Of a DNA stretch of 64,000 bases, positions 4,521-62,607 are shown piece by piece. The notes beneath the pieces are model-generated. The model did no database searches and had not been told where the DNA came from. It saw only the letters and a program-made list of their open reading frames with translations. The stretch comes from Liolophura sinensis (lineage: Eukaryota; Mollusca; Polyplacophora; Chitonida; Chitonidae): NCBI RefSeq assembly GCF_032854445.1, contig NC_088300.1:23107608-23171607 (forward strand), in the 5' to 3' direction. Position numbers and translations under genes: made by a program. How positions within the stretch are numbered: the stretch's first letter is position 1; the number at the start of each line of letters is the position of its first letter.

Positions 4521-4885
4521 GTAATGACGTCATAATATTGTGACGTTGCCACTAATATAAAGAAAAGAAGTCTCGTCGTAGTAAAACAAGTTCTCTACCC
4601 AGTTGTTTGTTTATCGCGTGCGTAATAACGTTTGTGTTGATAGTATTGTACACGCCATATGAAAACAAAGAATGAGATTTCTAACTGCTTATAATTTTAT
4701 CAGGACGAAAGAGCGAATGTTTCCGTTAGATTGGTAGGGCAAGTTGTTTTTGTTTTTTTTAGTTTTTACATTAATTTAAAAATGGCGGTCATGGCAATTC
4801 TGCATTATGCCAGAAATACCTTTACAGACTATTTAATGGTTATTGGATGTTTGGTTATTCCGTTCTGCGACTGTTAGCTTTCAAT
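4521..4885 (+). pseudogene. Tetraspanin (peripherin-like) 5' relic between A1 and A2
   Basis: Starts at a palindromic TGACGTCA (4525-4532). The stretch to about 4730 resembles the flank just before the intact tetraspanin ATG (39640-39870). The stretch 4761-4876 resembles tetraspanin exon 1 from the end of TM1 through TM2: a reading FTDYLMVIGCLV matches FTDYVIATGVLV (residues 59-70). About 180 bp covering the start codon and TM1 is missing, and TAG/TAA stops follow, so it is dead as a gene. Confidence 0.6.
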
Positions 4886-5213
4886 GGACATCATGCCATT
4901 TTAAAGGAAAAAGCTTCCACAAAAACGCATTGGTCTTAAAGTAAGGACAGAAAACAGAAAATAAAATGGGTTATGACCTACTAGTTGCTTTAAAGAGCCA
5001 CAGAATTACAGGGATATAGAAAACAGTAAAAAAGAAATACAACAGTATAGCTAGAAATACAGTAGTGCAGGCAGAGCCACAAAACTCAAACATTTATTAT
5101 TTAGAGGAAAAAAATCACAAACTGTCCTGTTGATCATCGTCACCATGGAAGTTCATCTAAAAATAATTTATAGCTATGTAGCACTTTAAAATGTGTTTTA
5201 GCACTGATCCTAC

Positions 5214-6635
5214 TTATAAAGACAAATATGAATTCACACTGTTTTCAGAAATGTCCGATGTCCCTGGATGGTTGATGGATGCCATGTCTATCTGGGCACG
5301 TTGATGTGGATAAAATGACGGCTCGCTGATGGCGAGGTTATCAGAAAAGGCATGGTTCGTGCATGTGGTGATGTCACTCGGTGCGATGACGTCATCAAAC
5401 GTGAGTCTCAGTGGTGGAATTTCCGGAAGATCAGGAATATTGTACATACACTCCGGAGACAATTCCGGTAGGTCGCTTGAATTCTCATTGGTTTCTATAT
5501 AGAACCTAGTCTGGTGAATAGGGGTCGTAACTCTACACGACAATTGACTATGCATATGAAAATCGGGACTTAATAATTCTTCTAAAGTGTCGTAGCCGCT
5601 GCTGTCAGACCCACACACTGAGGTGTCACTTGTGGTGTCACTATACGGACTTGATGAATCTGCTGTCATCGCACACCGAGTTACAGGACTACCTCTGGCT
5701 GAGCTACTGTGCCCGTAGTCCTTCAGCCCAGAATCAGTGTTGAAATGAACTGAGGTGTCCTCTAGATTGCACATCTGAAGCTGGAACAGTTTAGCCGGAG
5801 ACGGACTGGTGTCGAGGATGTTCTGGAAAGCCTCCATTCTGTGAGTCAAGGATAACACACAACGTTCCCATAATCCATTGGCGTTGACTTGTTGGAATCC
5901 TGACCGTAATGTGTTGGATCCGGAGAACTTGTTAGTCGGTCGGTAATCTCCTCGGGCAAAGGTTAGCAAGCTCTTTGGGGTAATGCCCCACAGAAAAGCA
6001 GATCTGCAATAAGTCAAGCAATAATCATTAATAAGATGAAAAACAAACACTAGCACGTATTAAAACTGAAATTTTTAAAATCAATGTATTATTGTCTACA
6101 ACTCTAAGACAAATTTGGATTAAATGTTAAAGTTATAGTTAGCTATTTTTGTTCTCTTTCAATGAGCCCCACTTGAACCTTCTGGAAAAAAGCACATATC
6201 TTACCTGTTAAGGACACCGTTGCGTGGTTTTTGGTTCTTTCGTCCTATCTTGGTGAAGCACTTGGTTTTGGACAAACTATGGCGAATGGCATTTTTCCAG
6301 TGTTGTTTACTTGTCGCTTTAAAATAGCAGAAACGAGTCTCGATGTAGCGGTAGATTTCAGTGATGGGCAGACAGAAGTTGGGAGATCTCATTATCGCCA
6401 GGAAGATGAGTTCCGTGTAGGTAAAGTTTGGTTTTCGACTGACATCCTGAGTGTCGAGTCCTTCGTAGGTTCTGACAAAGTTATCTAGCACACTGCGCAG
6501 GTCATCTTGGCTGAGGGGCGGAACGGACGTTTTCTTAATAGAGGCTGGTCTAGAGACCTTCCGGTATTTCAGTAAATTCTCCACCATGTGGTTATCTGTG
6601 TGGAAACTTTGACTGAACTTTCTCTTGTAAGCCAT
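5214..6635 (-). CDS. Forkhead gene A2, intact, 406 aa
   Basis: Exon 1 is 6205-6635 (431 bp) and exon 2 is 5214-6003 (790 bp), with a 201-bp intron. The sum is 407 codons with no break. Exon 1 differs from A1 only at residue 15 (Asn for Thr). Between CFTKI and the LW that aligns with the Tyr-Trp of GSYW in ordinary Fox proteins there are about six extra residues, placed where the intron falls, so wing 1 is long. Tail landmarks: HRMEAFQNILD about 198-208, SDSSGYDTL 276-284, LPEIPPLRLTFDDV 336-349, then about 57 residues ending SYLSL. An AATAAA signal (minus strand) sits at 5093-5098, 116 bp past the stop. This is the best reference copy for the A group. Confidence 0.9.
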
Positions 6636-6733
6636 TATAGCAAGTTTAGTAGTGGAGAGAGAACCGATGCTTTGGGATGGATCTTTTTTCCAGCCAGAGA
6701 TCTGAAATGTACTGAGGTATATACTGGGCCTCG

Positions 6734-6780
6734 TATATATAGTGCTAACTGTAATCTGAGTGATCCTTTTCTAACATGAC
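6734..6780 (-). promoter_or_regulatory. Fox A2 promoter: TATA-like box and upstream element
   Basis: TATATATA at 6734-6741, 99 bp before the ATG. The shared GAGTGATCC block is at 6758-6780, with spacing identical to A1. Confidence 0.55.
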
Positions 6781-9681
6781 ATGACAGAGACAGTTGTAAG
6801 AACATCTCGTCCACTGTGACTCAATGTCACATATTATCAAGCCTCCAGTGAAAGTAGGATTACATTCTTACCCTATGAACCCTGACCTCTAATCCCTCCC
6901 CACTCCCCACTGGATATTTAATCAGTTAGTTTACCGAAACTGACAGCCGTATGATTTCGCATAACAAAAGTACGAATGTATTCCATATGATCAGGGGCGT
7001 TTAACTCACCTGATGTTTAACAAAAAGCCTCATTGATTTCACATCGGACAATACTTCTTTGCTTAATGAAACAAGGACATTAAAAACATTTATGCTGGGG
7101 TGGAGATAATTATTAAAATGTCTCGCTTCTTTTCGACATCCGAACGTAAGGTGAATGATGTTTGATGAAATTAATAAAAATAAACAGCGCATATATATGC
7201 AAAATACAGTAAAGTTTTGTCAGAGCTGTGTATTATTCATTTGTTTCTTGTGTAACAGACTAAGCATACACCCACAATCTGATATCTGAGTATCGACTAA
7301 TAAAACGAAATAGTCTAGCTGAGTATCAACACAATCTCTGAGAAGCATTAGAATGGTCTCCACTTAAGCTGTACCAGCCAAACAATCTTCTATGATTTTG
7401 AGCAAGGTTTGTCGACATTTAGATCATCTTTACCAGTGGGGAGAACGGGGTTTAGTAGCCTATAATTATTGGTGAGGTGTTGAGCAAAACGGAGAAGATT
7501 ATAGAGGATTATCACAAAACACCTCATGTAGATGAGCAACAGAAGAATCGTAGAGAAGTTCCGTTTCTAATAACTCATCGGATCATTGTTTTGTTTTGCT
7601 CTTCATAAAACGATTTCTAAGCCAGAGTGAGACATAAGTGACATGCTTACTCTGTTGTTGAATATCAGCTACTAAAGCACGTTTATGCTGTGGAATGTGA
7701 ATTTTACAAAGTAACTTGTTTTTCGACATCCGTAATGGAAGTTTGATGGTGTGTCTTTAAAATCAGTGAACACAAACAATGCATACAACCCATCGTACAT
7801 ATTCAGTAAAATAATACATTCCATTTTCCATTGGATGACAGTGTTTTGCATAATGAAAATACGTTACCAATGTTTTGATGTGAAATATATTATTTTTTAT
7901 AAAAGCGTGTCAGTCTTTTTCTACATCTGCAAAGGAAAGAGGATTGTGTTTTTCTAAAACTGAGGAACATAAAGGACGCAATGACGACTGCACACACAAA
8001 GCAGTCAGTAAAGGTATAGCCTTAGAACATTTTTGTATTATTTATCAATTTATAATATACTTACTCGTGGTTAACATGTCCAACCGTTTACATGTTGATG
8101 TCTAACTCTTACCTGAGAGGAAATATTCTGATAGATGTGAGATCACGTGTCTATCTGATCATTTTTAGGAAAATTCACGTTAAAGGATGGAATTTCGCAT
8201 GACATGAATTGTATACCGCCATCTTTAACTTGAATGATCATTGGTTAAGACGTAAACCAAATGAACGGGACTATTTGACCTCGGCAAACTTTGCCATTTA
8301 AGTGATGAGAAAAGGTTAAATGGCTCATCATTGCTAGTAAGGAAAGAGCATGATAGGGAATTATCTCTTACTTATAGAGGGATAACGCCTGACGGCTAAA
8401 AGTAACAGAAGGATGGCAGTGAATCATCGTTGGAGATAATTGATCTCATTATTGTACCTTTGTGAATACGCACAGTTGGATTAATCTGTTTTTCTGTTAA
8501 ATGAAAACCAGATGTGAAACATGTACGACAAATGAGGTATCGTTTGTTTCAGTTTGACTATGTTGAGGTTCTTGAAGATGGTGAACTTGCTAGTGATCAG
8601 ACAGACAAAAGTCCAATGAAATCTCGTCATTGATACTTAAATGACTGTTTTATTATTATATGATCATTTATTATACAGATGCTGTCATAAATTGTCTCAT
8701 GATCATTGATTTCAAAATGTAAAATGCACTACGATTTGTTCTCAACAGCTGTTAAAGATGAAGTGTAATTGAGGATGTAGTGGCTGGGTTTGGGAAGTTT
8801 TAAAAACAAACAAAATTATACGTGTTGGCGACTTGAGGGTGGCACCAGCAGTTCCTATCAAGTAAAAGTTTACTTCTAGCTATGGTGTTATAAAATAGCG
8901 TCTTGCTTCATTATTGTAAGATGATATTAATGTTAATTATGTGGATTATTCTGGACAAAGTAAAAATGACATTTTTATAGAAAATGTCTTCAATTTAGTC
9001 CTTTGTGCACGGATGAAAAGTTTCAAAGCTTTAACATCTTAACTCGGACACAATATTGTAAAGGTATCTGAGTATTACTCTAAAATTTTGGTTATAGCTG
9101 GGAAACAATATGTGCTATACTATCTCGGGTTTAAGGCAATAAAGTGGAATTTCCGTATTTTTGGAATAATGGCCAACTTATAAACTTTCAGAAAATGTCA
9201 TTCTCAGTATTTTGCACATTTCTGTTTTGACACAATAAGTTTTAATTCAATCCGATTTCCGAGAGTTAATATATGCTCGAAAATAAATGAGCACTGGCAA
9301 ATATGCACGATGAAGGCCGCTCAGCAAAGTTCGTCTAATGTGAACGTTACTTTTCATTCCTTGGGTAAAGAGTCATGATGATACAGGAAAGCTGAATATG
9401 TGTAACAAGTGTATGACATCCAGTTGACCTGTTTAAGAACTACACTGATTATAATTGGTCATATACGTGTCCTTCAGTGACAGTTCGGAACACGCTCCAC
9501 CCTAAAGTTTATGAAAGAAACGCCGCTTTTCTCTCCTAAGAATTCAGTATGCTATCATGGGTCAAAGGGCCATCCATTTCTTTCTCAAGAAATAAGTATC
9601 ACGGAAATCAATCCTCTAAACGTGATAAGGTTGAGCGGTCGGAGTAATCATATGCAGAAAAAAGAATCTCGATCAACTATC
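6781..9681. other. A-type spacer between Fox A2 and A3
   Basis: Nearly identical to the A1-A2 spacer, with scattered single-base changes and one-base indels (for example near 8516 and 8720). It holds no recognisable gene or mobile element. Confidence 0.6.
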
Positions 9682-10046
9682 GTAATGACGTCATAATATT
9701 GTGACGTTGCCACTAATATAAAGAAAAGAAGTCTCGTCGTAGTAAAACAAGTTCTCTACCCAGTTGTTTGTTTATCGCGTGCGTAATAACGTTTGTGTTG
9801 ATAGTATTGTACACGCCATATGAAAACAAAGAATGAGATTTCTAACTGCTTATAATTTTATCAGGACGAAAGAGCGAATGTTTCCGTTAGATTGGTAGGG
9901 CAAGTTGTTTTTGTTTTTTTTAGTTTTTACATTAATTTAAAAATGGCGGTCATGGCAATTCTGCATTATGCCAGAAATACCTTTACAGACTATTTAATGG
10001 TTATTGGATGTTTGGTTATTCCGTTCTGCGACTGTTAGCTTTCAAT
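9682..10046 (+). pseudogene. Tetraspanin 5' relic between A2 and A3
   Basis: Same structure as the relic at 4521: TGACGTCA at its left end, flank-like sequence, then the exon-1-like block at 9922-10037 with the FTDY-like reading and an in-frame stop. Essentially identical to the first relic, as expected from the recent duplication. Confidence 0.6.
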
Positions 10047-10374
10047 GGACATCATGCCATTTTAAAGGAAAAAGCTTCCACAAAAACGCATTGGTCTTAA
10101 AGTAAGGACAGAAAACAGAAAATAAAATGGGTTATGACCTACTAGTTGCTTTAAAGAGCCACAGAATTACAGGGATATAGAAAACAGTAAAAAAGAAATA
10201 CAACAGTATAGCTAGAAATACAGTAGTGCAGGCAGAGCCACAAAACTCAAACATTTATTATTTAGAGGAAAAAAATCACAAACTGTCCTGTTGATCATCG
10301 TCACCATGGAAGTTCATCTAAAAATAATTTATAGCTATGTAGCACTTTAAAATGTGTTTTAGCACTGATCCTAC

Positions 10375-11796: not shown

Positions 11797-11894
11797 TATA
11801 GCAAGTTTAGTAGTGGAGAGAGAACCGATGCTTTGGGATGGATCTTTTTTCCAGCCAGAGATCTGAAATGTACTGAGGTATATACTGGGCCTCG

Positions 11895-11941
11895 TATATA
11901 TAGTGCTAACTGTAATCTGAGTGATCCTTTTCTAACATGAC
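11895..11941 (-). promoter_or_regulatory. Fox A3 promoter: TATA-like box and upstream element
   Basis: TATATATA at 11895-11902 and the shared upstream block at 11919-11941, at the same spacing as A1 and A2. Confidence 0.55.
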
Positions 11942-14842
11942 ATGACAGAGACAGTTGTAAGAACATCTCGTCCACTGTGACTCAATGTCACATATTATCA
12001 AGCCTCCAGTGAAAGTAGGATTACATTCTTACCCTATGAACCCTGACCTCTAATCCCTCCCCACTCCCCACTGGATATTTAATCAGTTAGTTTACCGAAA
12101 CTGACAGCCGTATGATTTCGCATAACAAAAGTACGAATGTATTCCATATGATCAGGGGCGTTTAACTCACCTGATGTTTAACAAAAAGCCTCATTGATTT
12201 CACATCGGACAATACTTCTTTGCTTAATGAAACAAGGACATTAAAAACATTTATGCTGGGGTGGAGATAATTATTAAAATGTCTCGCTTCTTTTCGACAT
12301 CCGAACGTAAGGTGAATGATGTTTGATGAAATTAATAAAAATAAACAGCGCATATATATGCAAAATACAGTAAAGTTTTGTCAGAGCTGTGTATTATTCA
12401 TTTGTTTCTTGTGTAACAGACTAAGCATACACCCACAATCTGATATCTGAGTATCGACTAATAAAACGAAATAGTCTAGCTGAGTATCAACACAATCTCT
12501 GAGAAGCATTAGAATGGTCTCCACTTAAGCTGTACCAGCCAAACAATCTTCTATGATTTTGAGCAAGGTTTGTCGACATTTAGATCATCTTTACCAGTGG
12601 GGAGAACGGGGTTTAGTAGCCTATAATTATTGGTGAGGTGTTGAGCAAAACGGAGAAGATTATAGAGGATTATCACAAAACACCTCATGTAGATGAGCAA
12701 CAGAAGAATCGTAGAGAAGTTCCGTTTCTAATAACTCATCGGATCATTGTTTTGTTTTGCTCTTCATAAAACGATTTCTAAGCCAGAGTGAGACATAAGT
12801 GACATGCTTACTCTGTTGTTGAATATCAGCTACTAAAGCACGTTTATGCTGTGGAATGTGAATTTTACAAAGTAACTTGTTTTTCGACATCCGTAATGGA
12901 AGTTTGATGGTGTGTCTTTAAAATCAGTGAACACAAACAATGCATACAACCCATCGTACATATTCAGTAAAATAATACATTCCATTTTCCATTGGATGAC
13001 AGTGTTTTGCATAATGAAAATACGTTACCAATGTTTTGATGTGAAATATATTATTTTTTATAAAAGCGTGTCAGTCTTTTTCTACATCTGCAAAGGAAAG
13101 AGGATTGTGTTTTTCTAAAACTGAGGAACATAAAGGACGCAATGACGACTGCACACACAAAGCAGTCAGTAAAGGTATAGCCTTAGAACATTTTTGTATT
13201 ATTTATCAATTTATAATATACTTACTCGTGGTTAACATATCCAACCGTTTACATGTTGATGTCTAACTCTTACCTGAGAGGAAATATTCTGATAGATGTG
13301 AGATCACGTGTCTATCTGATCATTTTTAGGAAAATTCACGTTAAAGGATGGAATTTCGCATGACATGAATTGTATACCGCCATCTTTAACTTGAATGATC
13401 ATTGGTTAAGACGTAAACCAAATGAACGGGACTATTTGACCTCGGCAAACTTTGCCATTTAAGTGATGAGAAAAGGTTAAATGGCTCATCATTGCTAGTA
13501 AGGAAAGAGCATGATAGGGAATTATCTCTTACTTATAGAGGGATAACGCCTGACGGCTAAAAGTAACAGAAGGATGGCAGTGAATCATCGTTGGAGATAA
13601 TTGATCTCATTATTGTACCTTTGTGAATACGCACAGTTGGATTAATCTGTTTTTCTGTTAAATGAAAACCAGATGTGAACATGTACGACAAATGAGGCAT
13701 CGTTTGTTTCAGTTTGACTATGTTGAGGTTCTTGAAGATGGTGATCTTGCTAGTGATCAGACAGACAAAAGTCCAATGAAATCTCGTCATTGATACTTAA
13801 ATGACTGTTTTATTATTATATGATCATTTATTATACAGATACTGTCATAAATTGTCTCATGATCATTGATTTCAAAATGTAAAAATGCACTACGATTTGC
13901 TCTCAACAGCTGTTAAAGAGAAGTTTAATTGAGGATGTAGTGGCTAGGTTTGGGAAGTTTTAAAAAACAAACAAAAATTATACGTGTTGGCGACTTGAGG
14001 GTGGCACCAGCAGTTCCTATCAAGTAAAAGTTTACTTCTAGCTATGGTGTTATAAAATAGCGTCTTGCTTCATTATTGTAAGATGATATTAATGTTAATT
14101 ATGTGGATTATTCTGGACAAAGTAAAAATGACATTTTTATAGAAAATGTCTTCAATTTAGTCCTTTGTGCACGGATGAAAAGTTTCAAAGCTTTAACATC
14201 TTAACTCGACACAATATTGTAAAGGTATCTGAGTATTACTCTAAAATTTTGGTTATAGCTGGGAAACAATATGTGCTATACTATCTCGGGTTTAAGGCAA
14301 TAAAGTGGAATTTCCGTATTTTTGGAATAATGGCCAACTTATAAACTTTCAGAAAATGTCATTCTCAGTATTTTGCACATTTCTGTTTTGACACAATAAG
14401 TTTTAATTCAATCCGATTTTCGAGAGTTAATATATGCTCGAAAATAAATGAGCACTGGCAAATATGCACGATGAAGGCCGCTCAGCAAAGTTCGTCTAAT
14501 GTGAACGTTACTTTTCAATCCTTGGGTAAAGAGTCATGATGATACAGGAAAGCTGAATATGTGTAACAAATGTATGACATCCAGTTGACCTGTTTAAGAA
14601 CTACACTGATTATAATTGGTCATATACGTGTCCTTCAGTGACAGTTCGGAACACGCTCCACCCTAAAGTTTATGAAAGAAACGCCGCTTTTCGCTCCTAA
14701 GAATTCAGTATGCTATCATGGGTCAAAGGGCCATCCATTTCTTTCTCAAGAAATAAGTATCACGGAAATCAATCCTCTAAACGTGATAAGGTTGAGTGGT
14801 CGGAGTAATCATATGCAGAAAAAAGAATCTCGATCAACTATC
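11942..14842. other. A-type spacer between Fox A3 and A4
   Basis: Follows the A2-A3 spacer closely up to about 13.5 kb, then accumulates its own substitutions. No gene is recognised. Confidence 0.6.
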
Positions 14843-15206
14843 GTAATGACGTCATAATATTGTGACGTTGCCACTAATATAAAGAAAAGAAGTCTCGTCG
14901 TAGTAAAACAAGTTCTCTACCCAGTTGTTTGTTTATCGCGTGCGTAATAACGTTTGTGTTGATAGTATTGTACACGCCTTATGAAAACAAAGAATGAGAT
15001 TTCTAACTGCTTATAATTTTATCAGGACGAAAGAGCGAATGTTTCCGTTAGATTAGTAGGGCAAGTTTTTTTAAAATTTTTTAGTTTTTACATAAATTTA
15101 AAAATGGCGGTGATGGTAATTCTGCATTATGCCAGAAATACCTTTACAGACTATTTAATGGTTATTGGATGTTTGGTTATTCCGTTCTGCGACTGTTAGC
15201 TTTCAA
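14843..15206 (+). pseudogene. Tetraspanin 5' relic between A3 and A4
   Basis: TGACGTCA marks the left end. The exon-1-like block is at about 15081-15197, again with FTDY-like coding similarity followed by a stop. The T-rich run before it differs from the first two relics (TTTTTTTAAAATTTTTTAG). Confidence 0.55.
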
Positions 15207-20082: not shown

Positions 20083-20466
20083 CGTAATGACGTCATAACA
20101 TTGTGACGTAAACTGTGACGTTACCACTAATATGGAAAGAATTCACATCGTGGTAAAACAAGGTTCTCTACCCAGCTGTTTGTTTATCGCGTGTCTAGTA
20201 ACGTTTGTGTTGATAGTATTGTACACGCCATATGAAAACAAAGAATGAGATTTCTAACTGCTTATAATTTTATCAGGACGAATGAGCGAATGTTTCCGTT
20301 AGAATAGTTAGGATAAGTTGTGGTTTTTTTGTTTTTTTTTTAGTTTTTACATTAATGTGAAAATGGCCAACAGGGTAATTCTGCATTATACCAGAAATAC
20401 CTTTACAAACTGTGTGATGATTACCGGATGTTTAGTTATTCCGTTCTGCGACTGTGACCTTTTAAT
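20083..20466 (+). pseudogene. Tetraspanin 5' relic between A4 and A5
   Basis: One of the least decayed relics. The flank match at about 20179-20204 aligns with about 39740-39765 before the tetraspanin ATG with only two mismatches by eye. The exon-1-like block is 20341-20456 and reads KMANRVILHY where the gene has KIDDRIILLG (43-52). The start codon region is deleted. Confidence 0.65.
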
Positions 20467-20754
20467 GGACATCAAGCCATTTTAAAGGAAAAAACTTCCA
20501 CATAAACGCATTGGTCTAAAAGTCTTTAAAGAGCAACAAAATTGACAGGGATATAGAAAACAGTAAAAAAGAAATACAACAATATAGCTAGAAATACAGT
20601 AGTGCAGGCAGAGCCACAAAACTCAAACAAATCTTATTTAGAAGAAAAAAAAACACACAAAACTGTCCTGTTGATCAGCATCACCATGGAAGCTCATCTA
20701 AAAATAATTTATAGCTATGTAGCACTTTAAAATGTGTTTTAGCACTGATCCTAC

Positions 20755-25213: not shown

Positions 25214-25583
25214 GGTAATGACGTCATAATATTGTGACGTTGCCACTAATATAAAAAAAGAACTCTCATCGTGGTAAAACAAGTTCTCTACTCAGTTGTT
25301 TGTTTATCGCGTGCGTAATAACGTTTGTGTTGATAGTATTGTACACACCGTATGAAAACAAAGAATGAGAATTCTAACTGCTTATAATTTTATCAGGACG
25401 AAAGAGCGAATGTTTCCGTTAGATTAGTAGGGCAAGTTGTTTTTGTTTTTGTTTCTTTTCAGTTTTTACATAATTTAAAAATGGCGGTCATGGTAATTCT
25501 GCATTATGCCAGAAATACCTTTACAGACTATTTGATGGTTATTGGATGTGTGGTTATTCCGTTCTGCGACTGTTAGCTTTCAA
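25214..25583 (+). pseudogene. Tetraspanin 5' relic between A5 and A6
   Basis: TGACGTCA near its left end, flank-like sequence, and the exon-1-like block at about 25461-25575 with the FTDYLMVIG reading and a downstream stop. Confidence 0.55.
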
Positions 25584-27462: not shown

Positions 27463-30365
27463 AAATGACAGAGACAGTTGTAAGAACATCTCGTCCACTG
27501 TGACTCAATGTCACATATTATCAAGCCTCCAGTGAAAGTAGGATTACATTCTTGCCCTATGAACCCTGACCTCTAATCCCTCCCCAGTCCCCACTGGATA
27601 TTTAATCTATCAGTTTACCGGAACTGACAGCCGTATGATTTCGCATAACAAAAGTACGAAGGTATTCGATATGATCAGGGACGTTTAACTCACCTGATGT
27701 TCAACAAAAAGCCTCATTGATTTCACACTGGACAATACTATTTTCCTTAATAAAACAAGGATATTAAAAGCATTTACGCTGTGATGGAGATAATTATTAA
27801 AATGTCTCGCTTCTTTTCGTCATCCGTAACGTAAGGTGAATGATGTTGGATGAAATTAATAAAACGAAAAAGCGCATATATATGCAAAATACAGTAAAGT
27901 TTTGTCAGAGCTGTGTATTATTCATTTGTTTCTTGTGTAACAGACTAAGCAAACACCCACAATCTGATATCTGAGTATCGACTAATAAAACGAAATAGTC
28001 TGGCTGAGTATTAACACAGTCTCTGAGAAGAATTAGAATGGTCTCCGCTTAAGCTGTACCAGCCAAACAATCTTCTATGATTTTGAGCAAGGTTTGTCGA
28101 CATTTAGATCATCTTTGTAAGTGGGAAGAACGGGGTTAAGTAGCCTATAATTATTGGTGAGGTGTTGAGCAAAAACGGTGGAGATTATAGAGGATTATCA
28201 CAAAATACCTCATGTGGATGAGCAACAGAAGAATCGTAGAGAAGTTCCGTTTCTAATAACTCATCGGATCATTGTTTTGTTTTGCTCTTCACAAAACAAT
28301 GTCTGAACCAGAGTGAGACATGAGTGACATGCTTACTCTGTTGTTGAATATCAGCTACTAAAGCACGTTTATGCTGTGGAATGTGAATTTTACAAACTAA
28401 CTCGTTTTTCGACATCCGTAATGGAAGACTAATGGCGTGTCTTTGAAATCAGTGAACACAAACAACGCATACAACCCATCGTACATATTCAGTAAAATAA
28501 TACATTCCATTTTCCATTGGATGACAGTGTTTTGCGTAATGAAAATACGTTACCAATATTTCGATGTGAAATAGATTATTTTTTATAAAAGCGTGTCAGT
28601 CTTTTTCTACATCTGCAAAGGAAAGAGGATTGTGTTTTTCTAAAACTGAGGAACATAAATGACGCAATGACGACTGCACACACAAAGAAGTCAGTAAAGG
28701 TATAGCCTTAGTACTTTCTTGTATTATTTATCACTTTATAATCCACTTACTCGTGTATAACGTGTTCAACCGTTTACATGTTGATGTCTAACTCTTACCT
28801 GAGAGGAAATATTCTGATAGATGTGGGATCACGTGTCTATCTGATCATTTTTAGGAAAATTGACGTTAAAGGATGGAATTTCGCATTACATGAATTGTAT
28901 ACCGCCATCTTTAACTTGAATGATCATTGCTTAAGACGTAAACCAAATGAACGGAACTATTTGACCTCGGCAAACTTTGTCACTTAAGTGATGAGAAAGG
29001 GTTAAATGGCTCATCATTGCTAGGAAGGAAAGAGCATGATAGGGGATTATCTCTTACTTATAGAGGGATATCGCCTGAATGTTAAAAGTAACAGAAGGAT
29101 GGCAGTGAATCATCGTTGGAGATAATTGATTTAATTATTGTACCTTTGTCAATACGCACAGTTGGATTATTCTGTTTTTCTGTTAAATGAAAACTAGGTG
29201 TGAACATGTATGACAAATGAGGTATCGTTTGTTTGAGTTTGACTATGTTGAAGTTTTGAAGATGGTGATCTTGCCAGTGACCAGACAGACAAAAGTCCAA
29301 TGAAATCTCGTCAGAGATACTTAAATGACTGTTTTATTATTATATGATCATTTATTATAGAGATACAGTCATAAATTGTCTCATGATCATTGATTTTAAA
29401 ATGTAAAAATGCACTACGGTTTGCTCTCAATAGCTGTTAAAGAGAAGTGTAATGTTGGATGTAGTGGCTAGGATTGGGAAGTTTTAAAAAACAAACAAAA
29501 ATTATACGTGTTGGCGACTTGAGGGTGGCCCGAGCAATTCCTATCAAGTAAAATTTTACTTCTAGCTATAGTGTTGTAAAATAGTGTCTTGCTTCATTAT
29601 TGTAGGATGATATTAATGTTAACTTTCTGGGCTATTCTGGACAAAGTAAAAATGACATTTTTATAGAAAATGTCTTCAATTTAGTCCTTTGTGCACGGAT
29701 GAAAAGTGACAAAGCTTTAACATCTTAACTCGACACAATATTGTAAAGGTATCTGAGTATTACTGTGAAATTTCGGTTCTAGCTGGGATACAATATGTGC
29801 TATACTATCTCGGGTTTAAGCCAATAAAGGGGAATCTCTTTATTTCTGAAATAATGGCCAACTTATAAACTTTCAAAAAATGTCATTCTCAGTATTTTGC
29901 AAATTTTTATTTTGATGAAATCAGTTTTAATTCGATTGGAATTACGAAAGTTAATATATACTCGAAAATAAATGAGCACTGGTAAATATGCACGTTGAAG
30001 GCCGCTCAGCAATGTTCGTGTAATGTAAACGCTACTTTTCATTCCTTGGGTAAAGAGTCATGATGATACAGGAAAGCTGAATATGTGTAACAAATGTATG
30101 ACATCCAGTTGACCTGTTTAAAAACTACACTGATTATAATTGGTCATATACGTGTCCTTCAGTGACAGTTCGGAACACGCTCCACCCTAAAGTTTATAAA
30201 AGAAACGCCTCTTTTCGCTGCTAAGAATTCAGTATGCTATCATGGGTCAAACGGCCATCCATTTCTTTCTGAAGAAATAAGTATCACGGAAATCAATCCT
30301 CTAAACGTGACAAGGTTGAGCGGTCGGAGTAATCATATGCAGAAAAAAGAATCTCGAGCAACTAT
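27463..30365. other. A-type spacer between Fox A6 and A7
   Basis: Same layout as the A5-A6 spacer with independent point changes. I see no gene or mobile insertion. Confidence 0.55.
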
Positions 30366-30730
30366 AGTAATGACGTCATAATATTGTGACGTTGCCACTA
30401 ATATAAAAAAAGAATTCTCATCGTGGTAAAACAAGTTCTCTACCCAGTTGTTTGTTTATCGCGTGCGTAATAACGTTTGTGTTGATAGTATTGTACACGC
30501 CATATGAAAACAAAGAATGAGATTTCTAACTGCTTATAATTTTATCAGGACGAAAGAGCGAATGTTTCCGTTAGATTAGTAGGGCAAGTTGTTTTTGTTT
30601 TTTTTAGTTTTTACATTAATTTAAAAATGGCGGTCATGGTAATTCTGCATTATGCCAGAAATACCTTTACAGACTATTTGATGGTTATTGGATGTTTGGT
30701 TATTCCGTTCTGCGACTGTTAGCTTTCAAT
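30366..30730 (+). pseudogene. Tetraspanin 5' relic between A6 and A7
   Basis: TGACGTCA at the left end and the exon-1-like block at about 30606-30720, again FTDYLMVIGCLV-like and then a stop. Confidence 0.55.
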
Positions 30731-32631: not shown

Positions 32632-35611
32632 AAATGACAGAGACAGTTGTAAGAACATCTCGTCCACTGTGACTCAATGTCACATATTATCAAGCCTCCA
32701 GTGAAAGTAGGATTACATTCTTGCCCTATGAACCCTGACCTCTAATCCCTCTCCAGTCCCCACTGGATATTTAATCTATCAGTTTACCGGAACTGAGAGC
32801 CGTATGATTTCGAATAACAAAAGTACGAAGGTATTCGATATGATCAGGGACGTTTAACTCACCTGATGTTCAACAAAAACCCTCATTGATTTCACATTGG
32901 ACAGTACTACTTTGCTTAATGAAACAAGGACATTAAAAGCATTTACGCTGTGATGGAGATAATTATTAAAATATCTCGCTTCTTTTCGACATCCGTAACG
33001 TAAGGTGAATGATGTTTGATGAAATTAATAAAAATAAACAGCGCATACATATATGTAAAATACAACAAAGTTTTGTCAGAGCTGTGTATTATTCATTTGT
33101 TTCTTGTGTAACAGACTAAGCAAACACCCACAATCTGATATCTGAGTATCGACTAATAAAACGAAATAGTCTGGCTGAGTATGAACACAGTCTCTGAGAA
33201 GCATTAGAGTGGTCTCCGCTTATGCTGTACCAGCCAAACAATTTTCTATGATTTTGAGCAAGGTTTGTCGACATTTGGGTCGTCTTTGCCAGTGGGGAGA
33301 ACGAGGTTAAGTAGCGTATAATTATTGGTGAGGTGTTGAGCAAAAACGGAGGAGATTATAGAGGATTATCACAAAATACCTCATGTGGATGAGCAACAGA
33401 AGAATCGTAGAGAAGTTCCGTTTCTAATAACTCATCGGATCATTGTTTTGTTTTGCTCTTCACAAAACAATGTTTAAGCCAGAGTGAGATATGAGTGACA
33501 TGCTTACTCTGTTGTTGAATATCAGCTACTAAAACACTTTTATGCTGTGGAATGTGAATTTTACAAACTAACTCGTTTTTCGACATCCGTAATGGAAGAT
33601 TGATGGTGTGTCTTTAAAATCAGTGAACACAAACAACGCATACAACCCATCGTACACATTCAGTAAAATAATACATTCCATTTTCCATTGGATGACAGTG
33701 TTTTGCGTAATGAAAATACGTTACCAAAGCTTTGATGTGAAATAGATTATTTTTATAAAAGCGTGTCAGTCTTTTTCTACATCTGCAAAGGAAGAAGGGT
33801 GGTGTTTTTCTAAAACTGAGGAACATAAATGACGCATTGACGACTGCACACACAAAGCAGTCAGTAAAGGTATTGCCTTAGAACATTTTTGTATTATTTA
33901 TCAATTTATAATCTACTTACTCGTGTATAACATGTCCAACCGTTTACATGTTGATGTCTAACTCTTACCTGAGAAGAAATATTCTGATAGATGTGTGACC
34001 ACGTGTCTATCTAATCATTTTTAGGAAAATTGACGTTGAAAGATGGAATTTTGCATTACATGAAGTGTATACCGCCATCTTTAACTTGAATGATCGATGC
34101 TTAAGACGTAAACCAAATGAACGGGACTATTTGACCTCGGCAAACTTTGCCATTTAAGTGATGAGAAAGGGTTAAATGGCCCATCATTGCTAGTAAAGAA
34201 AGGGCATGATAGGGGATTATCTCTTATTTATAGAGGGATAACGCCTGACGGCTAAAAGTAACAGAAGGATGGCAGTGAATCATCGTTGGAGATAATTGAT
34301 CTAAATATTGTACCCTTGTGAACACGCACAGTTGGATTATTCTGTTTTTCTGTTAAATGAAAATCAGGTGTGAACATGTTTGACAAATGAGGCATCGTTT
34401 TTTTCAGTTTGACTATACTGAAGTTCTTGAAGATGGTGATCTTGCTAGTGATCAGACAGACAAAAGTCCAATGAAATTTCGTCAAAGATACTTAAATGAC
34501 TGTTTTATTATCTATATGATCATTTATTATACAGATACTGTCATAAATTGTCTCATGATCATTGATTTTAAAATGTAAAAATGCACTACGATTTGCTCTC
34601 AACAGCTGCTAAAGAGAAGTGTAATGTTGGATGTAGTGGCTAGGTTTGGGAAGTTTTAAAAAACAAACAAAAATTATACGTGTTGGCGACTTGAGGGTGG
34701 CATCAGCAGTTCCTGTCTAGGGTTTTTTTTGCAGAAAAGTTTTACTTCTAGTTATGGTGCTGTAAAATAGCGTCTTGCTTCATTATTGTAAGATGATATT
34801 AATTTTAACTTTCTGGGTTATTCTGGACAAAGTAAAAATGACATTTTTATAGAAAATGTCTTCAATTTAGTCCTTTTTGCACGGAAGAAAAGTGACAAAG
34901 CTTTTTAACATCTTAACTCGACACAATATTGTAAAGGTATCTGAGTATTATTGTAAATTTTCGGTTTTAGCTGGGATGTGCTATACTATCTCGGGTTTAA
35001 GTTAATAAAGCGGAATTTCCGTGTTTTTGGAATAATGGCCAACTTATAAACTTTCAGAGAATGCCATTCTCAGCATTTTGCAAATTTCTGTTTTGACGCA
35101 ATAATACATTGATTTTAATTCGATCCGAATTACGAGAGTTAATATATGCTCGAAAACAAATGAGCACTGGTAAATATGCACGTTGAAGGCCGCTCAGCAA
35201 AGTTCGTGTAATGTGAACGCTTACTTCTTATTCCTTGGTTAAAGCAAGTGTGGAGTCATGATGATACAGGAAAGTTGAATATGTGTAAAAAATGTGTGAC
35301 ATCCAGTTGTCAGTCAGAGTCAGTCACAGTCCATTCTAAATGGACATTCTAAAGTGACAATTCAGAGTCAGACACAGTCCATTCTAAAGTTTACGGCTCA
35401 TCTGATGACATCACATTATCATAGTGCATATCGCACAAAAGTTCAGAGAAAGGCCGCTCTTCACTCATGAGGTTTCGGTATGATATTACGGGTCAAAGGG
35501 CCACCCATTTCTTTCTCAAGAAATAAGTATCACGGAAATCAATCCTCTAAACGTGACAAGGTTGAGCGATCGGAGTAATCATATGCAGAAAAACAATCTC
35601 GAGCAACTATG
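32632..35611. other. A-type spacer between Fox A7 and A8, variant with extra blocks
   Basis: Carries the T-run/GCAGAAAAG insert (about 34718-34742) and the GATGACATCACATTATCATAG block (about 35404) found otherwise only between A4 and A5. At about 35305-35390 a short CAGTCCATTCTAAA-containing segment is repeated in tandem. No gene is seen. Confidence 0.55.
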
Positions 35612-35910
35612 GTAATGACGTCATAACATTGTGACGTAAACTGTGACGTTACCACTAACATGGAAAGAATTCACATCGTGGTAAAACAAGGTTCTTTAAG
35701 GTTCTAACTGCTTATAATTTTATCAGGACAAAAGAGCAAATGTTTCCGTTAGATTAGTTAGGATAAGTTGTGTTTTTTTTAGTTTTTACATTAATGTGAA
35801 AATGGCCAACAGGGTAATTCTGCATTATGCCAGAAATACCTTTACAAACTGTGTGATGATTATCGGATGTTTGGTTAATCCGTTCTGCGACTGTGACCTT
35901 TTAATGGACA
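35612..35910 (+). pseudogene. Tetraspanin 5' relic between A7 and A8
   Basis: Keeps TGACGTCA and the exon-1-like block (about 35781-35900), but about 90 bp of the flank-like part is deleted near 35695. The reading MKMANRVILHYARNTFT is open here and aligns with VKIDDRIILLGSYTGSAFT of the intact tetraspanin (residues 42-60). An open frame continues to 36017 without resembling the rest of the family. Confidence 0.65.
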
Positions 35911-36189
35911 TCAAGCCATTTCAAAGGAAAAAACTTTCACATAAACGCATTGGTCTTAAATCTTTAAAGAGCAACAAAATTGACAGGGATATAGAAAACA
36001 GTAAAAAAGAAATATAAAAATATAGCTAGAAATACAGTAGTGCAGGCAGAGCCACAAAACTCAAACATTTATTATTTAGAAGAAAAAAAACACAAAACTG
36101 TCCTGTTGATCAGCATCATCATGGAAGTTCATCTAAAAATAATTTATAGCTATGTAGCACTTTAAAATGTGCTTTAGCACTGATCCTAC

Positions 36190-37362
36190 TTATAAAGACA
36201 AATATGAATTCACACTGTTTTTAGAGATGTCCGATGTCCCTGGATGGTTGTTGTATATCATGTCTATTTGGGCACGTTGATGTGGATAAAATGACGGCTC
36301 GCTGATGGCGAGGTTATCAGAAAAGGCATGGTTCGTGCATGTGGTGATGTCACTCGGTGCGATGACGTCATCAAACGTGAGTCTCAGTGGTGGAATTTCC
36401 GGAAGATCCGGAACATACATTCTGGAGACAATTCCGTTAGGTCGGTTGAATTCTCATTGGTCTCTAAATAGAGGACCTAGTCTGGTGAATAGGGGGCGTA
36501 ACTCTACACGACAATTGACTATGCATATGAAAATCGGGACTTAATAATTCTTCTAAAGTGTCGTAACCGCTGCTGTCAGACGCACACACTGAGGTGTCAC
36601 TTGTGGTGTCACTATACAGACTTGATGAATCTACTGTCATCGCACACCGAGTTACAGGACTAACACTGGCTGGGCTAATGTGTCCGTAATCCTTTAGCCC
36701 AGAATCAGTGTTGGGATAAATTGATGTGTCCTCTAGATTGCACATCTGAAGCTGGAACAGTTTAGCCGGAGACGGACTAGTGTCGAGGATGTTTTGGAAA
36801 GCCTCCATTCTGTGAGTCAAGGATAGCACACAGTCTTCGCATCATCCATTGGCGTTGACTTGTTGGAATCCTGACCGTAATGCTTTGGATCCGGAGAACT
36901 TGTTAGTCGGTCGGTAATCTCCTCGGGCAAAGGTCAGCAAGCTCTTTGGGATAATGGTCCACCACAGAAAAGCAGACCTGAAATGCATCAAGCAAGCATC
37001 ATTAATAAGATGAAATCAAAAGGTTGAACATGTGTAAAATTGCAATTTTTTTTAATACATGCATTATTATCTATAATTCTAATATAAATTTGAATGGGAT
37101 ATTAAAGTTATAGTTAAACATTTTTGTTGTCTTTCAATGAGTCCTACTTGAACACTCTGGAAGAAAGCACATGTCTTACCTGTTAAGGACACCGTTGCGT
37201 GGTTTTTGGTTCTTTCGTTCTATCTTGGTGAAGCACTTGGTTTTGGCCAAACTCCGGCGGATTGCATTTTTCCAGTGTTGTTTACGTGTCGCTTAAAATA
37301 ACTGTAAGGCGTCTCAATGTAACGGTAGATTTTACTGATGAGCAGACAGAAGTTGAGAGACA
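36190..37362 (-). pseudogene. Forkhead pseudogene A8
   Basis: The exon 2 remnant is 36190-36977. It has an in-frame TGA at 36842-36844 (NGLWEG has become NG-stop-CED), an extra TGG after FLW, and frame changes between 36405 and 36475 that separate the SDSSGYDTL part from the PDLPEIPPLRLTFDD part. The exon 1 remnant starts at a good donor (37180), has a one-base loss in the TCGCTTTAAAATA region, and loses similarity near 37362. The N-terminal half of the forkhead exon and the start codon are therefore gone. It marks the degraded edge of the A array. Confidence 0.85.
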
Positions 37363-38844
37363 GATTATATAGATTAGGTTTAGCAATGGTCACAACAGGC
37401 TAAATGATCCGTAGGGATAGAAGTAAGGGATTAACGGAGGATTATCTGTTAAATATAGAAGACTAATATCTCATGTGAATAAACAATCGAGGAATCTGAG
37501 GGAAACAATGATTGGGAAATATTAATGTTATCAGTGTGCCTTTGTATACAATTTCATGCGCGCGGTCGGATTGTTATGTTTTCCTTTTAACTAAACAACA
37601 GTTAAACAGTGATGAGAAATGAGTGTCCTGGCATGTCTCTTGTTATGAAATCTCACCAGAGAGACTGAAATCACTGGGCGATGAAGAGACTTATACTCGT
37701 AATTATCTTATATATAGATATAAAGATACTGACATCTTTCTAGGTCATGAGCTATAATCACCCATCAATTTCAACACGGAAGAAAGGCCCATGATCGGCT
37801 GCCAAATGCTAAAGAAGAGGCACGAGGATCAATGTCGTAGGACGATTAAAGTTTTAATTATAGTTTTGACGGCTGGGTAAAAGTAAACGTATATTTTCAG
37901 ATGTAGGCCAATATGGACTGACAATTACATGTTCAACGATAGATGTACAGATGCTGGTAATTACTACACATAACAATAGTGATGCTGTAAAATTGTGTCA
38001 TGTTTCAAAGTATGGAGCAACATTATTACACTAAATGTTTTCAATTTGAGTTTTTGTAGACTGAACAAACATGCCCCAGCTTGAACATCGTTTCGTGACA
38101 CAGTCCATGACCGGATTGAATTGATTAATGACATTGAGTAGGTTTTTAATGTCCAGTCACTTCTCAAATAACAAGACATGGCGCATGGATAAAAACGCCG
38201 TTATTGGTTATAAAGTTATCCACACCTAAACTTCTCATCGTCAATTCAGTAGATCTGTTCCTAAATGCGCCTGAAGAAAGCCATAGCTACCTCTGTCATT
38301 TGAAAATACATTATAAAACAACGACGTCTTAGGGAAGGCCATTTCCTTGGAATAAGACCATCTCCAAAACACGAGCAATCAGAATGTCTCATCAGCAGAA
38401 ACAACGAGGACTGATTTCACTTTGATCCTTTGTGCACTGAAAATAAGTAACAGAGCCTTTACGTGACAAAATGACAAAATTTGTAAATCGCATTTAAGTG
38501 GGTTTTAAATGTGGCCTTACGTTACTTTGGAAGGAACAAGGCATAAAGAACTGTTCTTTTTAAAGTACATATTAATACAAAATGATGGAACAAGACAAAT
38601 GTGTAGAATGAACTTCACTGTTTATTGTTAAATTATCAACATATAAATTTCTGGTCTTTCACACAATAGCTTCCTTCATATATGCTCCTGAAGGAAGCGA
38701 GAGTTCCCTCTGTCAACAACCTCCATCACTTTGTGAAAAAACTATCTAATGGAATCACCTGTGGAATCAAACAAGGAGCGGGGATTGTCAGCGTGCAGAT
38801 CATTTCTGCTGGGTGTAAGTGTGGACGGATTACATGGAGACACA

Positions 38845-39175
38845 AGGTGACACAAGGTGACACTAGGTGATAATATGATACTCATGTCGGAGAGATTATA
38901 AAAGGATTATTTACAAAAGGATTGATTCTTTTTGAGAGTTTATAAGTGGATTATACAATATTCACGGTGACAGATTATAAGGGGAGTATGGGATACCCAT
39001 GATGGAGGGATGGTATGAGGACTGTATAATACGTACGGTAGGGTTATTGTGCAATGCTCATGGTGGGGTGATTATAAGGGGTTTGTTTAATACTCACGGT
39101 GGGAAGAGGGGGTGTATAAGAGGAGTGCGGGACACTCATGATGGGGAGTGTAAGAGAACTGTGTGATACTCAGGA
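38845..39175 (+). repeat. Degenerate tandem repeat with ATACTCATGGTGG-like units
   Basis: Six or more imperfect units combine GATTATAAG-like and GATACTCATG-like words with G-rich linkers, spaced about 40-50 bp. It starts after a short CACAAGGTGA triplication (38843-38868). Boundaries are approximate. Confidence 0.5.
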
Positions 39176-39358
39176 TCAAAAAATCTCACACTGAAAAGCC
39201 TCAGAAGATTCAGTGCTTGACTTATATAAATTACTGATTTTATCTTTATTTACATTCTGTTCTAGAAACTCTGTTCCAAGCCTTTTGACTTGTGTACCTG
39301 CAGGAATAAACAATAGTTTGGTAGATCTAAAAGTACAAGGAAAGTCTTACATACTTAA

Positions 39359-39482
39359 TTTATTTGTGCATTTGAATGGTGTTTTACGCCGTGCTCAAGA
39401 ATATTTCACTTTATATACAACGGCGGTCAGCATTATAGTGGGAAGAAACCGGACAGAGCCCGAGGGAAACCCACGACCATAT
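39359..39482 (-). mobile_element. 5'-truncated tRNA-type SINE fragment
   Basis: Contains the SINE tail and central part in inverted orientation (GGTGTTTTACGCCG, then AATATTTCACTT) and stops where the tRNA-related head should begin. ATACTTAA flanks both sides (39351-39358 and 39483-39490), a probable target-site duplication showing that it inserted already truncated. Confidence 0.75.
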
Positions 39483-39524
39483 ATACTTAAAAGTTACATG
39501 TACTTCATTCCTCAATCGGTCTCA

Positions 39525-39951
39525 GGTACCTACTTCTCAAGAAATATGACTCCAAACTAAGAAACAGAAGCCAAACTTCTAACGTGACACGAAGAGGGTG
39601 AAAGGCTACCAAAGATGGACGGACGTTACACAACAATAGCAATTACGTGTCACTATTGTGACGTGAAATGTGACGTAAACTGTGATGTTAAAATAATTCG
39701 CTCCCTGACGCGACGGGCCATTTGTGACGTCCCCACTTTGTTTGTTTATAGCGTGCCTAGTAACGTGTTGATAACAGTGTCCATGCCACATGGAAACACA
39801 CAATAGGTGACAAACAAGATGACGACTTCTGACCGCTCATGAGTATACCAGGAGGAAAGAGCAAATGATCCTTTTACATCTCACGACAGGTTCCGCTCGG
39901 TCGGTTGTTTCTACTCTTAACATGACGAACGTTTGAAGGTGCAAGCAGACG
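39525..39951 (+). promoter_or_regulatory. 5' flank of the tetraspanin gene with repeated TGACGT half-sites
   Basis: TGACGT or TGACG words occur at about 39659, 39671, 39707 and 39724, the half-site of CREB/ATF-type elements. From about 39640 to 39870 the stretch is conserved in all seven A-spacer relics, where the first site is a full TGACGTCA. No clear TATA box. Regulatory function is inferred only. Confidence 0.45.
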
Positions 39952-42592
39952 ATGACGCCTTCGTGTTTAATACGGGAAGACGGGCGGGAAAAACTGGGGT
40001 TGACACTGGCTGGCATTAGCAGCATTCTGAGCGTTTTAGGTGTTGTGACGATCTGCGCCTCTGTTTACATGAAAGTGAAAATCGACGACAGGATCATTCT
40101 GTTGGGCTCCTATACCGGAAGCGCTTTTACAGACTACGTAATAGCAACTGGTGTTCTAGTTTTCCTTATCAACGGCTTTATCACCAAGGTGGCCCTAGAC
40201 TGTTCAGATCAAGACACCCGTGACACTTTTCAAGGCATCCTCGCTTTCATGGTTGTGGTTCTTTTCCTGCTATCCATCTTAGTGCTTGTGGCAGCCATAT
40301 TGTGCTACAGACATCACAATGACATTGACGAAGCTTTAGAAAGCGGATTCTTGACGGCCATGATGAAATACAAAAGTGAAGCAGCCCTGAAAACAGAGCT
40401 CGATATGTTACAGATGGAGTTCCGGTGCTGTGGAGCAGACTCGTACGTTGATTGGTTTCACGTGAGCTGGATACACAGAAACTACATTAACACGAGCGAT
40501 TCCAGAATTAAACTGTAAGGAATGCTATTTCAGAAAGATGGCCATCAGAAGCATTCTGACTGTATATGTATTTCAGATTTAATCACGTGATACAGATATA
40601 TATATAAGTATGAAGTTTAGCCTTTGACAGGGAAATTGGAAATCTTACACAGACCTAAATCTGCGCTTGTTACGTCCATTCTGCAATGCAGGAAATGTGA
40701 ATGATGTGCGAAAAGCAAAAGGTTTTTGTCTGTGACTTACATAAAAAAGATAATCCTAAACGTGAGACTCGCTGAAACTTTTGTGTAACATACCTCGGAC
40801 ATTTTGATTCATGATTGGGCAGTTATCAAGTATTTTACTCTATTTCGTAGATAGTAAAAATTTATTACATCAGTATTTTGTCGCCATTTCCTAGGTGAAG
40901 GAATTGAGAAATCATTGACTAATTTTTGCTACCAGTACATCAACTTTTTAAATCACTGCACATATTTCATATTGAATGTTTGTAGTAAGCTGAAGGAGAA
41001 TGGCTACCTGACAGACGACGTGCCGTTCAGCTGCTGTGACATCGGAGCATTACGACCTTGTATACATCACTCCATGACACATGCCAGCAAGCACCCCAGC
41101 TTTGATCGAGAGACAATCCACACCATAGGTTGTAATGCGGCACTCAGGACGTACTATCAGGAAAGCGTTTTCTTACCGGCTGGTTGCGTGGCTATAGCGG
41201 CATTTTCACTGCAGGTGAGAGCTCGTTTATTCAGCTGGAAAATGAACCTGTTGTGCATACATGACTAACCCCAGCACGCAACATCTTTAACGTCGTGCAC
41301 AAAACATTCATGACGTCGAAGATTTTGTTTTCAAGTTATCCAAAGTTATAATGCCTAACTGTACAGGCGTAAGGCACTACGCGTTGATTAGAGGTGAATA
41401 TCATTAGTTATCTTCACTTAAATACACAAAACTGCCTGGGGGCCTCCGTGGCTCAGTCGGTTTAAGCGCTAGCGCAGCGTAATGACCCAGGAGTGTCTCA
41501 CCAATGCGGTCGCTGTGAGCTCAAGTCCAGCTCATGCTGGCGGCCGTACGTGAGAAGGTCTGCCAGCAACCTGCGGATGGTCGTGGGTTTCCCCCGGGCT
41601 CTGCCCTGTTTCCACCCACCATAATGCTGGCCGCCGTCGTATAAGTGAAATATTCTTGAGTAAGGCGTAAAACACCAATCAAAAAAAAAAAAAAAAAAAA
41701 AAATCAAAACTGCCTGCGAAGATTCTCACGTTCGAAATTCAGAAACATTTTGGATATCGCGAGACTCGGAGGTTTTTGCAACATCGAAGCGTTGATCATA
41801 TCCACCATATAGTGCTTTTTTTTAAAATGTGTGTTCATTGTGCGTTGTGTTTCGTCCGGTAAAAGCAACATGATCAAACAAAGGAACTGAATACAAACAA
41901 TAGATATTGTTTTATTTGGACAAATCGCGCACTCATTCACTGGTAAGGTTGGAAATTCTTTTCTGGCGTAATGGCAAGCTCAGTTCACCATGGTTTTCTT
42001 GTAATACGAGAGGAGTACCAGTTTGCTCACAAAACGTCACTGGAAAAGGCAGAAATGAACCCCAGACAACTTAAGACCGAATACTTCAGGTGGTAAATTT
42101 GACTGATTTGGTGTAAGTATAATATACTCGGAATATACAACTACCGACAAATAGTTTTTCAGGCGAGCATTTAATTGCATTTACACAAGTTACCCAATAT
42201 TACTGGAGAAGTGCTCAACAACTGAGGCAAAATCCATGTTTTCGGCCCCGGCAGACGATGACTTGTTTTTATGGTTTCAGCTCCTCGCCACTATTCTGCT
42301 AAGGTTACTTCAGACATCGATAAAGTCCGCTTTAGAGTACGGAGATCCGGAAGGCCCGGGGGATGCTTACATCATTAAATCCCTACCGTGTAGGAGTGAT
42401 GGCTCATGGAGTTTCGGCGAGTACGGAGAGGGAGGAGGTGGGGGAGGGGGAGGAGGTGGGGGTGGGAAAGAGAAGAAAGACAAAGGCAAAAAGAAGGAAA
42501 AGAATAAAAATCAGAAAAAGAAAGATTCAAAAAAGAAGAGTTCGGGCAAAAGTAAACCCTCTAGTAAGGCACCAAAAAGGGGCAAAAAGTAG
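39952..42592 (+). CDS. Peripherin/ROM1-like tetraspanin, three exons, 367 aa
   Basis: Exons are 39952-40514, 40986-41214 and 42281-42592, with donors CT/GTAAGG and GCAG/GTGAGA and acceptors TTTGTAG/T and TTTCAG/C. The joined frame is open for 367 codons plus TAG. Hydrophobic segments lie at about 17-38, 61-82, 95-118 and 248-275. The large loop has CCG (159-161), VPFSCC (200-205), RPC (211-213) and GC (236-237), the pattern of the peripherin-2/ROM1 branch. DMLQMEFRCCG matches the vertebrate family almost word for word. The loop Cys that forms the intermolecular disulfide in vertebrate peripherin-2 (Cys150) is Ala here. The C terminus is unusual: 12 Gly (315-326), then a Lys-rich tail. Likely a membrane-shaping tetraspanin of curved or stacked membranes; its tissue is unknown. 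AATAAA at 42774-42779. Confidence 0.9.
41439..41705 (+). mobile_element. Full-length tRNA-headed SINE in intron 2 of the tetraspanin gene
   Basis: Starts GGGGCCTCCGTGGCTCAG with a pol III A box (TGGCTCAGTCGG) and a B-box-like GAGCTCAAGTC. The central part contains the AATATTTCACTT block in reverse sense, and it ends in a long A run. AAAACTGCCTG is duplicated at 41428-41438 and 41706-41716. The pure A tail and exact duplication point to a young insertion. Head and tail agree with SINEs I know from molluscs. Confidence 0.9.
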
Positions 42593-62595: not shown

Positions 62596-62607
62596 TTCGT
62601 GATGTAA

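Follow-up and report, generated by a model that had tools for sequence, protein, structure and literature searches.

How do pieces of one gene come to stand between the copies of another? This question is raised by a locus of the chiton Liolophura sinensis (C6:23107608-23171607, NC_088300.1; genome 609 Mb), where a stretch of 64,000 nucleotides was analysed as a whole (the window; coordinates are window positions, and negative values lie to the left of it). The locus contains a minus-strand array of two-exon forkhead genes, with A units on the left and B units on the right, and a single tetraspanin gene on the plus strand between them. The A array repeats every 5.2 kb or so (about 5,170 bp per unit) and comprises ten forkhead units, each followed on its right by a tetraspanin 5' end. 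After the first nine A units this end is a truncated piece, here called a relic; after the tenth it belongs to the intact tetraspanin. The explanation that we favour, to which a probability of roughly 0.7 is given, is that the relics were copied from the 5' end of a peripherin-like tetraspanin and were truncated from birth.

Homology of the spacer blocks to the tetraspanin gene

Sequence comparison has confirmed that the blocks in the A spacers are homologous to the 5' flank of the tetraspanin (39513..39924, plus strand) and to part of its exon 1. Seven of them, all on the plus strand, lie in the window: r1 (4399..4869), r2 (9560..10031), r3 (14720..15178), r4 (19966..20455), which is the best preserved, r5 (25111..25555), r6 (30243..30701) and r7 (35506..35876), which has suffered an extra internal deletion removing the best-conserved flank. 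All of them were delimited by nhmmer and alignment, together with tblastn in r3 to r6 and BLASTN in r4. These are the seven A spacers named in the original prediction, which had traced them to the flank and part of exon 1 of the tetraspanin, a derivation that holds for 7/7 by BLASTN and shuffling. The count itself has risen to nine, as reading the flanks revealed two more relics to the left of the window, r-1 (about -5963) and r0 (about -738).

At the nucleotide level, BLASTN of 39000-42700 against the window gave collinear plus-strand patches in the A spacers, the best of them pairing 39739-39804 with 20177-20246 (78.6% of 70 columns, E 4e-10) and others in the same relic pairing 39669-39690 with 20102-20123 (95% of 22 columns) and 40064-40101 with 20346-20383 (82% of 38 columns). 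The shuffled-sequence control that had been proposed for this similarity was passed by every relic: when 39600-40300 was aligned locally to each of the nine, none of 200 dinucleotide shuffles reached the real score, with z values from 4.8 (r7, the weakest, its best flank being lost) to 12.6 (r4), and the real alignment also scored higher than one reversed and one reverse-complement control per relic (9/9). Single-sequence nhmmer with 39500-42700 detected the tetraspanin flank in all nine relics (E 1e-19 to 1e-4); the part from exon 1 reached E<=1 in just four (r4, 2.6e-4; r7, 0.012; r1 and r2, about 0.8). When r4 was compared with the DNA of the whole genome, in a search that may overlook weak matches, relic DNA was found in only nine places, all in this array (10 match rows, r7 being split).

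The protein-level similarity is fainter. With tblastn of the tetraspanin, short matches in the correct frame were obtained in 9/9 relics, though they are weak, with E values from 1.9e-4 (r4) to 0.10 (r5); among the controls, the sole match to a reversed relic had E 1.7 and one minus-frame match in r4 had E 2.3. The peptide pairs quoted in support of the original prediction do exist, but as a composite of different relics: KMANRVIL is found in r-1, r0, r4 and r7, FTDYLMVIGCLV in r1, r2, r3 and r6, and FTDYLMVIGCVV in r5. Exon 2, exon 3 and the remainder of exon 1 gave no match in any of the nine relics (nhmmer, E<=1). A processed pseudogene (retrocopy) is rejected, given that the relics include the upstream flank and no match to exons 2 and 3.

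The intact gene has three exons on the plus strand: exon 1 (39952..40514) is an open frame with its start codon at 39952 and a GT donor, exon 2 (40986..41214) has AG/GT sites with the frame maintained, and exon 3 runs to the stop (42281..42592), which gives a conceptual protein of 367 amino acids. This protein matches PF00335 with 79.2 bits (cut-off 32.1) over residues 19-270 of 367. Its best match in the Protein Data Bank (PDB) is peripherin-2 (7zw1_A, 140 bits, E 9e-40, residues 19-326), followed by ROM1 (7zw1_B, 97.9 bits) and then by tetraspanin-15 (34.4 bits). On these scores the gene is predicted to encode a peripherin-2-like tetraspanin, closer to peripherin-2/ROM1 than to the other solved tetraspanins. 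A second tetraspanin relative is present at C6:10.01 Mb, with 29% identity.

The relics share a deletion around the start codon. Two fixed words that lie 240 bp apart in the gene are separated by 86-98 bp in the relics, so that 142-154 bp are missing in 9/9, in agreement with the original prediction that the start region had been deleted in all relics. By profile the missing part is 39925-40062, start codon included; its ends are approximate, since tblastn matches in r1, r2, r5, r6 and r7 extend at low identity into residues 9-36. The common shortfall suggests one ancestral relic, although the deletion could instead have spread through homogenisation of the array. For this reason the proposed timing, with the loss preceding the expansion of the A units, is likely and not proven: homogenisation is visible as an exact run of 5,278 bp at a shift of 5,225 between the first two units, A-1 and A0 (-8523 to -3246). 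This run may be either a true repeat or an assembly duplicate.

The relics are without visible constraint. Their mean divergence among units A0-A7 (4.7-10.3%) lies between the extremes seen for other windows outside the exons (2.4-12.6%, with one at 15.9%), the forkhead exon windows showing 1.4-5.7%. That the promoter and exon parts can still be aligned with the gene and most of the spacer cannot would be expected if constraint acted on the tetraspanin side alone.

The spacers belong to two interleaved types, one with r-1, r0, r4 and r7 and the other with r1, r2, r3, r5 and r6. The identity of r4 is 93-98% to the other three of its type and 81-83% to the remaining five, and one type has about 45 bp that the other lacks. 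This interleaving suggests exchange between units.

Orientation of the unit and origin of the truncated copies

The units of the A array, cut near the forkhead 3' end, start near -9676 (A-1), -5175, 50, 5214, 10375, 15536, 20755, 25914, 31060 and 36190 (A8). The left edge is forkhead A-1 and the right edge is the intact tetraspanin. On the far left the unit homology begins at -9858, equivalent to position 20568 of r4, and no relic was found to the left of the first forkhead on either strand, from -9858 down to -19600. On the right, a profile of units A0-A7, run on the plus strand only against the intervals around the tetraspanin, gave four matches in order between A8 and the gene: 37387-38103 (E 6e-18), 38412-38487 (E 7e-5), 39531-39924 (E 9e-24) and 40063-40163 (E 6e-6). 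The spacer from forkhead A8 to the tetraspanin (37387..39530, plus strand) is therefore collinear with the A-unit spacer in patches, the first two of these matches, and otherwise unmatched. Towards forkhead B1 (40519-44350) the same profile had no match at E<=10, nor had it any at this threshold in 20 shuffled targets.

From these alignments the unit would most simply be a divergent pair, with a forkhead gene pointing leftwards and the 5' part of the tetraspanin pointing rightwards. An array that begins with a forkhead and ends with a tetraspanin is what tandem copies would give if the copied segment started beyond the forkhead 3' end and stopped inside tetraspanin exon 1. The two outer ends of homology also come close together inside the units. 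In r4 the tetraspanin homology ends at 20438 (profile) or 20455 (single sequence), and the left-edge homology starts at 20568; the zone between them (20440..20567, plus strand) clearly matches neither side. The gap thus measures 113-130 bp, against a unit length of about 5,170 bp, and a random left edge would land this close about 5% of the time (260 of 5,170 bp). The duplication junction is placed within this gap.

The ancestral arrangement would have been a head-to-head pair, with the forkhead gene on the minus strand and the tetraspanin on the plus strand, roughly 3 kb apart. A tandem duplication would then have extended from just past the forkhead 3' end to within tetraspanin exon 1. A duplication of this kind leaves the outer flanks whole, so the original tetraspanin would have stayed intact at the right end and each new unit would consist of a forkhead gene and a cut tetraspanin. 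The truncated copy would also have lost about 140-150 bp around the start codon and then decayed neutrally, and through unequal exchange the array would have become more uniform and grown to ten forkhead units. We infer here that the cut corresponds to the duplication junction rather than to a later deletion, and that unequal exchange drove the expansion. The relics carry along non-coding flank and patches of the upstream spacer, and the truncated copies lie on the array side with the intact original at the edge, as born-truncated copies should. The original prediction was right that tetraspanin and forkhead DNA were amplified together. Its asymmetric retention, in which one partner of a pair was lost, becomes unnecessary, because a duplication breaking in exon 1 yields copies that were never whole.

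Several observations weigh against this origin. With some 110-130 bp at the junction that clearly match neither side, the breakpoint is not visible to the single base. In the interior units a deletion would look the same as a duplication junction, which leaves the decision to the edges alone, where both forkheads have suffered damage: exon 1 is absent from A-1, and A8 (36190..37360, minus strand), the degenerate last A copy, has an in-frame stop and is missing the 5' part of exon 1. Three weak matches of the A profile (E 0.0009, 0.005 and 0.1) also fall within the B1 spacer, where the forkhead starts or a little upstream of that point. In nine tests of the junction against the B1 flank with base shuffles, r-1 (P 0.016) and r4 (P 0.022) reached nominal significance, followed by r1 (0.084); with dinucleotide shuffles the real scores were equalled in 41/200, 116/200 and 110/200, respectively. 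When the r4 piece was lengthened to take in the forkhead 3' flank, 6/200 dinucleotide shuffles reached its score against B1, a likeness that could reflect a shared 3' flank, the A and B forkheads being paralogues.

The strongest competitor, which we nevertheless regard as unlikely, proposes that whole forkhead-tetraspanin pairs were duplicated first, and that one tetraspanin then lost its 3' end and start region and its unit was amplified. This comes close to the asymmetric retention mentioned above, whichever way the pair is read. The common start shortfall fits it, as it shows that relics underwent deletion before or during their spread, and the local junction would appear identical under both histories. 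On the other hand, it requires more events and leaves the near-coincidence of the two homology ends unexplained, and none of the nine relics matched exons 2 and 3 or what remains of exon 1 (nhmmer, E<=1).

Much less probable is the convergent unit of the original prediction, in which the tetraspanin is followed by a forkhead gene, as the intact tetraspanin is followed by forkhead B1 (44351..45820, minus strand, open-frame limits). An A forkhead does stand after each relic and B1 after the tetraspanin, the A and B forkheads are homologous, and the single longer-piece test of the junction described above would agree with it. This order is disfavoured by the array edges, with no relic found left of the first forkhead (down to -19600), and by the A profile, which is silent in 40519-44350, towards B1, and instead finds its homologous spacer between A8 and the tetraspanin. 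A comparably small probability is attached to a composite idea, namely that the tetraspanin is a recurrent breakpoint between two forkhead sub-arrays growing independently, and that the copied promoter fragments are still regulatory (for instance, forkhead-responsive). If this were true, growth of the array would have multiplied the promoter of a neighbour.

Slightly less credible still is the proposal that selection has retained the copies of the tetraspanin promoter because they regulate the forkhead genes. The best-kept segment contains TGTTTGTTTA, present in the tetraspanin and in 8/9 relics (lost from r7), which we take to resemble a forkhead-binding word. The relic windows are no less divergent among units than other spacer, and constraint on the tetraspanin side alone accounts for a promoter and exon that can be aligned to a neutral relic. 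Finally, chance or low-complexity similarity, favoured only by the weakness of the protein-level matches taken by themselves, has a negligible probability and is ruled out by the 0/200 shuffles in each of the nine relics and by the match of the relic profile to the tetraspanin flank (E 1e-22).

The second duplication and the forkhead genes

On the other side of the tetraspanin there is a second tandem duplication, of 8,589 bp, whose left break lies within exon 3. Its first copy occupies 42423..51011 and its second copy 51012..59599 (8,588 bp, with one 1-bp gap in 8,589 columns); the junction shows a 5-bp overlap, ACGGA (microhomology), and two B forkheads were carried along. The duplication produced a 3' fragment of the tetraspanin (end of exon 3, 51012..51181, plus strand). 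As judged from these alignments, this event probably represents the same process as the relics acting from the opposite side: exon 3 was cut, a 3' fragment was left and the gene was kept whole. The near-exact repeat may be either a recent event or an assembly duplicate. Apart from the fragment at 51012, no tetraspanin remains were found in the B spacers at E<=1. To the right of the window the relic profile gave two marginal minus-strand matches (76004-75957, E 0.56; 65220-65171, E 0.77), which are taken as chance. Matches of the B region to 41424-41778 and 39342-39480 were rejected as gene sequence, being a dispersed repeat. This repeat, presumably similar to a tRNA-derived short interspersed nuclear element, occurs on both strands at 41439-41695, 43136-43354, 48953-49218, 62330-62595 and other places, among them tetraspanin intron 2. 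A 44-bp tandem repeat of about 7 copies is located at 43726-44039, left of forkhead B1.

The forkhead genes are exemplified by A2 (5214..6770, minus strand), with an exon 2 frame at 5214-6059 and an exon 1 frame at 6201-6770, these being open-frame limits and not exon limits. Exon 1 of A2 matches PF00250 with 80.4 bits (positions 1-75 of 88); matches to the domain were also found in A0-A7 and in the B copies, and weakly in A8, A-1 not being listed. Of all copies, A-1 and A8 have diverged furthest from unit A2 (80% and 90% in the exon 2 region); greater divergence at the ends of tandem arrays is a familiar pattern. PDB matches to hepatocyte nuclear factor 3-beta (FOXA2, 58 bits) and FOXN1 (57.9 bits) score alike. 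The ratio of nonsynonymous to synonymous substitution rates (dN/dS) of exon 1 is 0.16-0.23 between A and B (six pairs) and 0.35-0.61 among A copies (five pairs, few changes). For exon 2 the A-B values are 0.36-0.55, and B2 against B5 gives 1.09, on four synonymous changes. These ratios point to purifying selection on exon 1 between A and B, less clearly among A copies, and many forkhead copies appear to be kept.

Between A (5214-32532) and B (44351-63999), dS is 0.2-0.3 in exon 1 and in the opening 82 codons of exon 2, and about 1.0-1.8 in the rest of exon 2. The intron between the two exons, compared for A4 and B1, aligns no better than shuffles (30/200 reach the score). This contrast could be due to gene conversion limited to exons or to unusual constraint on synonymous sites.

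Related forkheads split at the same place in the protein occur twice on C3 and once, inverted, to the right of the window. The inverted gene (about 68737-70059) is single and more divergent (67% in exon 1), and lies at the right end of the cluster. No forkhead-tetraspanin partner was found (E<=0.01) in 19 kb around the two C3 forkheads, in 18 kb right of the window or in 18 kb around the C6 tetraspanin relative. Among the stretches examined, the pairing is seen only at this locus.

Meaning and comparison with known systems

The mechanism proposed is an ordinary one, with a clean record on both sides of one gene. The phase and the edges of a gene array can seldom be seen in tandem repeats, and here the relics establish the phase and the two edges alike; each unit also holds a piece of DNA of known origin without visible constraint. 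On this reading, arrays growing on either side of a single-copy gene can eat into both of its ends and yet leave it whole, and arrays of gene fragments need not imply gene loss.

Lineage-specific forkhead expansions, of foxQ2 and of orphan Fox genes, have been reported in spiralian genomes (PMC9539403). The locus described here resembles them in its multi-copy, divergent and hard-to-classify forkhead genes; it differs in that, in the parts of that report consulted, the copies are foxQ2 and orphan genes and tetraspanin fragments in an array are not described. Among the titles and opening lines of abstracts in the open-licence literature on partial duplications, on fragments at array flanks and on forkhead-tetraspanin microsynteny, no described case was found. 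With respect to peripherin-2/ROM1 (PDB 7zw1), the intact gene is a full-length relative, whereas the relics retain about 35 codons of exon 1, without the start region. In partial (incomplete) tandem gene duplication, a break within a neighbouring gene gives a truncated copy and leaves the original whole. The present locus shares with the remnants of such events the truncated copy beside the whole original, and it differs from them in that the truncated copy has been amplified to nine and that one gene has been cut at both ends, in separate events, by the two arrays that flank it.

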